In this document: positions 13,410 through 15,823 of the stretch, piece by piece | Layout of the letters: every line of letters starts with the position of its first letter | How positions within the stretch are numbered: position 1 is the first letter of the stretch | Source of the DNA: Candidatus Hydrothermarchaeum profundi | Lineage (GTDB): Archaea > Hydrothermarchaeota > Hydrothermarchaeia > Hydrothermarchaeales > Hydrothermarchaeaceae | NCBI GenBank assembly: GCA_002011125.2 | Contig: MTMF02000009.1 | Location: 1,332,989 to 1,396,988 of the forward strand | Direction: 5' to 3' | DNA: 64,000 nucleotides | Translations under genes and position numbers: made by a program | Notes under the pieces: generated by a model | Databases searched by the model: none | What the model saw: only the letters and a program-made list of their open reading frames with translations | Told to the model about the DNA's origin: nothing

Positions 13410-13826
13410 ATGCTTAAGGAGGCTTTCTATAGAAGGATGATAGATGCTAACACTCTTAGAGCACAATTTGAAACTATCTATGGCGACGTAGACCTAGTAG
13501 TAAACGTTCTGCAAAACTGTGTAAAATATGGTGAGAAACTTAAATCTATAGCAAAAAGGAAGGAAGACGAAGACATGGCAAACGCTGCTATTGAAAGTAA
13601 CACTGCAATGCTATCAGCTATAAAAGGCGAAATATCAGTTGCGGAATTCAAAAAGAAAATGTGGGAGCTTGAGGAACGTTATCCTGAGTATTTCCAAAGA
13701 GGAAGGAGGGATATAGGCACCTCGAAAGATAATGTGAAAGCCATAATTCATAGGATAGAGTATATGATAGATAGATATGATGTCAGGTATCCAAGCTATG
13801 ATCGACATAGGTGCAATGATGCCTAA
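13410..13826 (+). CDS. Unknown soluble protein downstream of fpoN
   Basis: A 138-residue, charged, mostly helical protein with no hydrophobic segments and a single cysteine. It starts one base after the fpoN stop, with GGGGGTCTG upstream, so it is part of the fpo transcript. In Methanosarcina the gene at this position is fpoO. I see no iron-sulfur cysteine pattern here and cannot claim homology. The middle (FKKMWELEERYPEYFQRGRR) is amphipathic. Function unknown; a peripheral Fpo subunit or assembly factor is possible. Confidence 0.75.
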   Translation: MLKEAFYRRMIDANTLRAQFETIYGDVDLVVNVLQNCVKYGEKLKSIAKRKEDEDMANAAIESNTAMLSAIKGEISVAEFKKKMWELEERYPEYFQRGRRDIGTSKDNVKAIIHRIEYMIDRYDVRYPSYDRHRCNDA

Positions 13827-13836
13827 GGTGGTAGAG

Positions 13837-14097
13837 ATGAGGGAACAGATTAAGGAATGTATTGAAGAGTTTGAAAAGGAAAAGACGGAGGTGGCAGCTG
13901 CTAGGCTTATCATATGTTTATATAATAACAAGGAAACTATTTACTGGGATGATGATCTAAAGAGGTTAAAATGCGCTGCAGAGGTTCATGATGAAAAGTG
14001 GGCTCCGTTAATGGAGGAGATAACTAAAGTCCTAGGGATAAAAAATAGGGATGAATACATTAAAATTAAAAACAAGTATAATTTAACGCAATACTAA
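13837..14097 (+). CDS. Unknown small protein at the end of the fpo operon
   Basis: An 86-residue charged protein beginning MREQIKECIEEFEKEK. I placed the start at ATG 13837 because AGGTGG lies five bases upstream; in-frame ATGs at 13777, 13780, 13816 and 13819 would overlap the previous gene by up to 50 bp. It contains three Cys and a WDDDLKRLKCAAEVHDEKW segment. No family recognised. Position suggests co-expression with Fpo. The next DNA is the paired hairpin element. Confidence 0.65.
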   Translation: MREQIKECIEEFEKEKTEVAAARLIICLYNNKETIYWDDDLKRLKCAAEVHDEKWAPLMEEITKVLGIKNRDEYIKIKNKYNLTQY

Positions 14098-14356: not shown

Positions 14357-15196
14357 TTATAAATTATTGTTTGAAAGGGCATTTAGCATTGTGGTAAACG
14401 TAAAAACGCAAAATTTTGAAATGTCCTTTTCGCTTATAATTCCAACGACTCTACCTCTATCTATAATTGGAAGCCGTCTAATATTGCGTATATTAAATAA
14501 TCTACTAGCATCTCTGATGGACTTTTGAGGTTCTATGGAAGTATGGAGAGGTGTATGTATAATACCTATCATTACATCCTCTGGTGGTAAGGCCTTAGCT
14601 ACGACTTTTTTCAATACATCTCTCTCAGTTGCGATGCCGTATTTCCCCTCTGCGACTTCAACAATTACTTCTCCTACTCCTTTTTCCTTCATTAGTTTAG
14701 AAGAGTCTAATACAGAGGTTTCGGGGTTTTCAATAATTGCATCATGCATGATCTGTGACACTTTACATTCAAGGCTTCTAGCATGTTCTTTACACGTCTC
14801 TGAAAGGATTTGTATGGACTCATCATACAGGAAGATATTGTATCTAGCGACATCTTTGTTGTCTAATATACCCACGATAGTTCCCTTATCTACTACTGGC
14901 AACCTTCTAATATCGTAAAGATTAAAAAGCTGACAGGCACGTCTAACGTCTCTCTGAGCCTCTATAGTACGTAGTTCAATGCTCATGATTTCTTCCGCTT
15001 TGGTTTGAAGGAAGTCTTTATTTTTAGATACTACCTTGTATAGAATATCTCGCTCTGTGACAATACCAAAATCTTTATCTCCGCGATCTACTAGTACAGC
15101 TCCAGCATTTCCTTCGTCCATCAGTTTAGCGACTTCTAGTACGGAGGCATAAGGTTTTACAACTATTGGGGGATACATTAGTTCTCTGATTTCCAT
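14357..15196 (-). CDS. Four-CBS-domain protein
   Basis: A 279-residue protein consisting of two Bateman modules. CBS units start near residues 1 (IRELMYPPIVV), 65 (AEEIMSIELRT), 140 (VSQIMHDAIIE) and 205 (IGIIHTPLHTS). The repeats FGIVTERDILYKVV and YGIATERDVLKKVV, and DIRRLPVVD and NIRRLPIID, show internal duplication. Such proteins sense adenylates or SAM. There is no fused effector domain, so the target is unknown. It converges on the fpo operon. Confidence 0.88.
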   Translation of the reverse strand: MEIRELMYPPIVVKPYASVLEVAKLMDEGNAGAVLVDRGDKDFGIVTERDILYKVVSKNKDFLQTKAEEIMSIELRTIEAQRDVRRACQLFNLYDIRRLPVVDKGTIVGILDNKDVARYNIFLYDESIQILSETCKEHARSLECKVSQIMHDAIIENPETSVLDSSKLMKEKGVGEVIVEVAEGKYGIATERDVLKKVVAKALPPEDVMIGIIHTPLHTSIEPQKSIRDASRLFNIRNIRRLPIIDRGRVVGIISEKDISKFCVFTFTTMLNALSNNNL

Positions 15197-15408
15197 TATC
15201 TTCCCTTCTTACTCCTAGTATCAATTTAGATTATTAACATTCCGAAGAAATCAGGAATTTATCGAGTTAGATTTTTCAAAAAGTATATGGACTATATAAT
15301 TATTCAATAAATTGCTATATTTTATGAATTATAATACGAATATATGATGTATTATTGAATATCAGTACAAAAATTGTTTAAGTCATTAACTTTCTAGTAA
15401 GAAATTAA
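15197..15408. promoter_or_regulatory. AT-rich upstream region of the four-CBS gene
   Basis: About 210 bp of very AT-rich DNA. A 10-bp inverted repeat, TATTCAATAA (15301-15310) and TTATTGAATA (15352-15361), encloses a shorter one, TATATT/AATATA. TATA-like candidates face both ways, including ATTGTTTAAGT at about 15373-15383, which would place a rightward start near 15405. No coding sequence is apparent. Confidence 0.35.
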
Positions 15409-15487
15409 AAAGGCAAAGGCGGGTGTCGCCCCCCTCACCTCTTGGTACACCTCCTAACTACCTCTTGTTTTTCCCGCCTTTGCCTTT
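15409..15487. ncRNA. Candidate structured RNA: 15-bp stem, 49-nt loop
   Basis: Arms AAAGGCAAAGGCGGG (15409-15423) and CCCGCCTTTGCCTTT (15473-15487) are perfectly complementary. On the plus strand the loop has CACCTC (15436), CACCTCCT (15448) and TACCTC (15459), complements of the SD sequence; read leftward these are GAGGTG/AGGAGGTG/GAGGTA. A leftward transcript has a TATA-like TTTTTATAAT about 25 nt before the stem (15508-15517) and would end CCTTTTT, so the minus strand is slightly favoured. It lies in otherwise non-coding DNA. Function unknown. Confidence 0.5.
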
Positions 15488-15530
15488 ACTCCTTTTATAA
15501 GAGTCTAATTATAAAAATATTTTTTTAGCT

Positions 15531-15722
15531 GTGAGAGTAGTGTTGGGTATACTTCTATTTTTTCCCTATTTTTACGTTATGATTATAAATATAGATACAA
15601 ATTTATTTAGCATAGAGGCAATGGTGGGGACTGCTTTGGGGATACTCCTCTCCTTCCTCATATGTTCCTATTATAATTCTCCTACCGTTGCCTCCTCTCC
15701 TCTCCATCCTATTTTTGATTGA
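15531..15722 (+). CDS. Possible small two-helix membrane protein
   Basis: A 63-residue open frame from a GTG start with two hydrophobic stretches (residues 4-20 and about 30-48), a short Ser/Pro-rich tail and no recognisable family. There is no good SD, though TTTTATAAG lies some 35 nt upstream. It sits between the hairpin at 15.45 kb and tRNA-Asn. It may be only chance coding in T-rich DNA. Confidence 0.25.
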   Translation: MRVVLGILLFFPYFYVMIINIDTNLFSIEAMVGTALGILLSFLICSYYNSPTVASSPLHPIFD

Positions 15723-15750
15723 AGTTCAGATTTGTTAAGTTGATGAAAAG

Positions 15751-15823
15751 CGCCGCCGGTCAGACTCGAACTGACGACCACGTGGTTAACAGCCACGCGC
15801 TCTACCTACTGAGCTACGGCGGC
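15751..15823 (-). tRNA. tRNA-Asn (GTT)
   Basis: On the minus strand a 73-nt cloverleaf: acceptor GCCGCCG/CGGCGGC, T arm GTCAG-TTCGAGT-CTGAC, and a GTT anticodon in the loop CTGTTAA. Discriminator base G; CCA is not encoded. A TATA-like ACTTTTAGA lies roughly 25 nt upstream. The 3' flank is T-rich. Confidence 0.95.

Follow-up and report, generated by a model that had tools for sequence, protein, structure and literature searches.

Hairpin A, a stem-loop in the window (the whole 64,000-nucleotide stretch of DNA analysed here), appears to be one of about a dozen paralogous genes for trans-acting sRNAs whose anti-SD loops would mask ribosome-binding sites. We assign this reading a probability of about 0.55. 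The hairpin itself is a real structure, and together with its siblings it very likely constitutes an RNA gene family. To our knowledge, the number of archaeal trans-acting sRNAs that are understood is very small, and the literature searched contained no sRNA study of Hydrothermarchaeota. A paralogous set with loops that copy the 16S tail provides named loci, strands and ends, and a simple rule: an anti-SD core with a variable flank.

A perfect stem presenting copies of the anti-SD

The source genome is a MAG of 2.19 Mb, with Hydrothermarchaeota / Ca. Pyrohabitans as its nearest named relatives. The arms of hairpin A are 100% complementary (15/15 bp) and enclose a 49-nt loop, in which the three motifs start 12 and then 11 nt apart (Table 1). 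The perfect stem, the loop length and the motif spacing of the initial annotation were confirmed at their exact positions. That annotation also equated CACCTCC with the archaeal 16S anti-SD. The 3′ end of this genome's 16S reads GGATCACCTCCTG (...GGTTGGATCACCTCCTG), a normal archaeal anti-SD, which bears out the equation and makes the CACCTCCT in the loop a true anti-SD copy.

Such structures are rare on the window's contig, C9. Perfect stems of at least 13 bp with an arm GC of at least 45% and a loop of at most 120 nt occur only three times, hairpin A included, and 13-mer seeds of such stems number 10, compared with 0–3 per first-order Markov version of the contig. The loop contains seven anti-SD 5-mers; across 1.92 Mb, just 5 intergenic positions reach a density of 7 per 45 nt. 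The RNA folding z-score is −4.6 for the plus strand and −1.8 for the minus strand.

Hairpin A lies in the intergenic space between a gene for a CBS-domain protein and a tRNA-Asn gene. The CBS-domain protein is part of a large CBS-domain set, with 25 matches to it in the same genome. The position of tRNA-Asn beside a 574-aa gene is kept across the order; the sequence past the tRNA is not. In one relative (G004), tRNA-Asn runs directly into homologs of 13410–14097, without the CBS gene and without the hairpin. A tandem second copy, element D, starts 126 nt to the right of hairpin A and is accompanied by a TATA-like ATTATAAATA upstream and CTATTTTTG downstream. The 63-aa ORF annotated at this place has no clear SD, and because it overlaps element D it is probably not a gene.

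Two other observations concern tRNA genes. Outside the window, ARAGORN predicts a tRNA-Pyl (CTA) at C9:1321583–1321652, so TAG may mean pyrrolysine in this archaeon. A repeat, GCCAYGTCYTRAGCC...ATTTATTAGC, follows three tRNA genes, those for tRNA-Cys, tRNA-Thr(CGT) and tRNA-Glu (C9:158004–158060 plus 3′ flanks), with a hairpin in one case.

Table 1. Hairpin A, its surroundings and its siblings on contig C9. Window position is C9 position minus 1332988; for hairpins A to M2 the strand given is the C-rich strand.
Feature	Window	C9	Strand	Description
Intergenic space	15197–15749			contains hairpin A
CBS-domain gene	14357–15196		−
tRNA-Asn	15750–15823		−
63-aa ORF	15531–15722		+	probably not a gene
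Candidate BRE/TATA of A, rightward	15368–15382		+	CAAAAATTGTTTAAG; first base 41 nt upstream of stem; tRNA-gene matrix score 6.6
A, 5′ arm	15409–15423		+	AAAGGCAAAGGCGGG; half of 15-bp stem
A, loop	15424–15472		+	C-rich, 49 nt; anti-SD matches CACCTC 15436–15441, CACCTCCT 15448–15455, TACCTC 15459–15464
A, 3′ arm	15473–15487		+	CCCGCCTTTGCCTTT
A, 3′ flank	15488–15497		+	ACTCCTTTTA; weak pyrimidine/T-rich, T4; possible rightward RNA end
A	15409–15487	1348397–1348475	+
D	15614–15695	1348602–1348683	+	tandem second copy; stem GAGGCAATGGTGGGG / CTCCTACCGTTGCCTC; C-rich loop with ATACTCCTCTCCTTCCTC; folding z −3.4
B		1487834–1487925	−
C		1788851–1788929	+
E		495266–495337	−
F		1175140–1175218	−	19-bp stem; loop GATCACCTCC identical to 16S tail
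G		734790–734847	−
H		392447–392506	+
K1		92642–92699	−
K4		1579892–1579952	+
M1		193104–193163	+	GGCAAGGTAGGAG arm
M2		874532–874589	+

A family of diverged hairpins

Hairpin A itself is present once in its own genome. A scan of contig C9 (1.92 Mb) identified about 12 hairpins in intergenic DNA that combine a long GC-rich stem with anti-SD sequence in the loop; several carry a AGGCAAAGG-type arm. At least three anti-SD/SD 5-mers are found in the loops of 9 of 32 intergenic stems (28%) and in 2.9% of random intergenic segments, an enrichment of about tenfold. Copies A, B, D and E have in common arms of the form AGGCAA[A/T]GG, in which 5 of 15 base pairs differ between copies through paired changes on both sides of the stem. 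These four were selected on pairing, but not on the AGGCAA sequence that their arms share. A covariance model built on these four copies also recovers two others independently, F at 32 bits (E = 9e-8) and C at 19 bits (E = 0.0014). M1 and M2 were picked up through their loop sequence rather than their stem.

The C-rich strand is probably the one transcribed

Promoters were scored with a position weight matrix trained on the BRE/TATA elements of the genome's 42 tRNA genes. Across the family, the C-rich strand scores above intergenic background (p=0.0015), whereas the G-rich strand is at background (p=0.15). The better tRNA-type BRE/TATA is on the C-rich strand in 10 of 12 copies (p=0.005), and the best sites on this strand begin 33–42 nt upstream of the stem. 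The candidate list shifted during the work: K2 and K3, weaker candidates that failed the promoter test, were dropped, and M1 and M2 (promoter scores 8.2 and 5.3) were added. For a list that has K2 and K3 but lacks M1 and M2, the C-rich strand is higher in 9/12 and the p-value of the paired test is 0.065, compared with 0.004 for A–H alone. Runs of at least five T within 30 nt downstream follow 7/12 hairpins on the C-rich strand and 0/12 on the G-rich strand. T7 runs on the C-rich strand follow four copies, E, K4, M1 and M2 (null 1.9%); the other strand has none.

For hairpin A the rightward and leftward scores are close (6.6 versus 5.3), and this copy alone is ambiguous. Its rightward site, CAAAAATTGTTTAAG, is at the 91st percentile among intergenic positions, and the T run downstream of the stem is weaker than those of the sibling copies. 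Based on the promoter and T-run signals of the family, hairpin A is probably read rightward, with the anti-SD motifs in its loop. The initial annotation had favored a leftward transcript, and the family counts on both signals run against it. Of the sequences that could serve as its leftward TATA-like box, TTATAAAA (15500–15493) is too near the stem to direct a start there; TTTTATAA, at about −29, fits better. The rightward site scores slightly higher.

If a leftward RNA were made, its loop (GAGGTAG, AGGAGGTG, GAGGTGAG) would mimic SDs, bind the 16S tail and sequester 30S subunits. Consistent with such an RNA are the minus-strand site TTTTATAA (score 5.3; about −29 relative to the stem), a T-rich TTTTTAATTTCTT past the stem and a pairing energy of −19.6 kcal/mol between the G-strand loop of A and the 16S tail. 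We nevertheless consider it unlikely, given that promoters on the family's G-rich strand score at background and T runs of at least five are absent there. Of the initial proposal of a small RNA acting through SD/anti-SD pairing, the discrete RNA and the option of titrating SDs fit the family; the SD mimic that sponges 30S subunits fits it less well. We dropped the possibility that the leftward loop encodes a 14-codon leader peptide (GTG-AGG-GGG...), as it has no family support.

A proposed model for masking of ribosome-binding sites

In the preferred reading, each gene of the family would be transcribed from its own promoter into an RNA of 60–90 nt. A stem of 10–19 bp would keep open a pyrimidine-rich loop of 30–60 nt, in which the 16S anti-SD would be displayed one to three times. 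By base-pairing with SD sequences of mRNAs, the loop would block access of the 30S subunit and switch genes off. The 7–8 nt anti-SD core by itself confers little target specificity; target choice may come from the extra loop bases that flank the core and vary among the siblings.

SDs are commonly used in this genome: GAGG is found upstream of 381/1483 genes, compared with 47/1483 for CCTC. The 7-mers of loop A are complementary to the SD windows of genes at 5.9 times the upstream background, and their matches exceed those of all 10 composition-matched shuffles (256 versus 96 ± 34), a test that partly repeats the criterion by which the loops were selected. The opposite, G-strand loop has no such complementarity. 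The common use of SDs and the complementarity of loop A make masking of ribosome-binding sites the simplest action for the predicted RNA. Whole-loop duplex-energy target prediction was uninformative because the duplexes covered the whole target, and 7-mer matching was used instead. A 12-nt match before an ammonium-transporter-like gene (C9:1887524–1889137; identity by eye only) was rejected as a single target, being at about chance level for SD-rich starts.

RNAs from the C-rich strand might instead bind a protein with a preference for single strands rich in C or U, as a sponge like RsmY/CsrB, without pairing to mRNA. Sponge RNAs are typically encoded in multiple copies, with several motifs in the loop of each hairpin. 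The family hairpins share both features, and the target specificity of their loops looks low. However, the loops match the anti-SD specifically, SD windows are matched better than by composition-matched shuffles, and no archaeal regulator recognizing C-rich motifs was identified in the analysis; we therefore regard a protein sponge as improbable.

We give a comparably low weight to the idea that the hairpins act only at the DNA level, as inverted repeats left by small mobile elements or as intrinsic terminators with no RNA function of their own. They are intergenic and multicopy with perfect inverted arms, and tRNA genes are nearby in two cases (tRNA-Asn at A/D and tRNA-Trp at B). But the copies are too divergent for recent transposition, yet their stems remain paired, their anti-SD loops are kept and their promoters are at similar distances; the loops are also far longer than those of terminators. 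A chance stem in AT-rich intergenic DNA is very unlikely: a few are expected in 1.9 Mb (0–3 seeds per Markov sequence), but not the tenfold loop enrichment, the shared arms and the promoter and terminator asymmetry.

Comparison with characterized sRNAs

The closest archaeal parallels are sRNA41 and sRNA154 of Methanosarcina mazei, intergenic sRNAs with an anti-RBS loop proposed to mask ribosome-binding sites (PMC5867862). The hairpin A family is likewise archaeal and intergenic with an anti-RBS loop, a likeness drawn by description. An intergenic gene with its own promoter is indicated for hairpin A through the family signal and weakly by A alone; a single-stranded loop complementary to the RBS/SD is supported by the predicted fold, the 16S tail and the SD-window complementarity. 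Unlike the M. mazei sRNAs, the family comprises about a dozen sibling genes, each built from a single long stem and a single large loop. For the M. mazei sRNAs a regulator (nitrogen) and targets have been described; the hairpin family is predicted from sequence.

Listeria LhrC1–5 are multicopy sRNAs in which three redundant CU-rich (UCCC) sites pair with SDs (PMC4132741). The family resembles LhrC in having several paralogous copies per genome, about 12 here. In contrast to the bacterial LhrC, whose copies are highly similar, have two stem-loops and distribute the sites over two loops and a linker, copies here diverge and have one stem, with all sites in one large loop. Masking of the ribosome-binding site has been shown for LhrC and for Staphylococcus aureus IsrR (PMC9410917); IsrR differs in being a single Fur-controlled gene with three stem-loops and a terminator. 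The family would also bear on whether C-rich-loop, SD-directed sRNAs arose independently in archaea and Firmicutes. A broader proposal, which we consider speculative and unlikely, is that an expanded family of anti-SD hairpin RNAs would form a genome-wide layer of translational control in Hydrothermarchaeota, perhaps slowing SD-led initiation in general, through competition with the 16S tail, rather than acting as specific regulators.

Distribution in relatives

A DNA search of 40 relatives gave no match to the hairpin A locus, and the arm pattern was found in its own genome only, none of the relatives searched having it. The initial annotation had suggested looking for the same stem and loop spacing in relatives. 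The pattern GAGGT...GGAGGTG...GAGGTG matched in 9 of 23 genomes of the phylum, and the reversed pattern also matched in many of these, so this search carries little information. With Rfam covariance models, only tRNAs were found in the window at the gathering threshold, and the permissive threshold gave chance matches. When the phylum and 247 relatives were searched with the R1 covariance model, most inspected matches outside the source genome fell within coding sequence and are attributed to chance. This search was a fast first look of limited sensitivity, which missed copy F even in its own genome, and absence from relatives is therefore weak evidence.

Three intergenic look-alikes with C-rich loops, L188 (in G003, TATA score 8.1), L192 (G010) and the less certain L182 (G007), are only suggestive as relatives of the family. 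In G003, a second strongly C/T-rich stretch (CCCCCACGGTAGGTGGGCCGTTCTCCCTCCCCCCC...) lies in the intergenic region about 130–200 nt downstream of the L188 hairpin and recalls the tandem layout of A and D.
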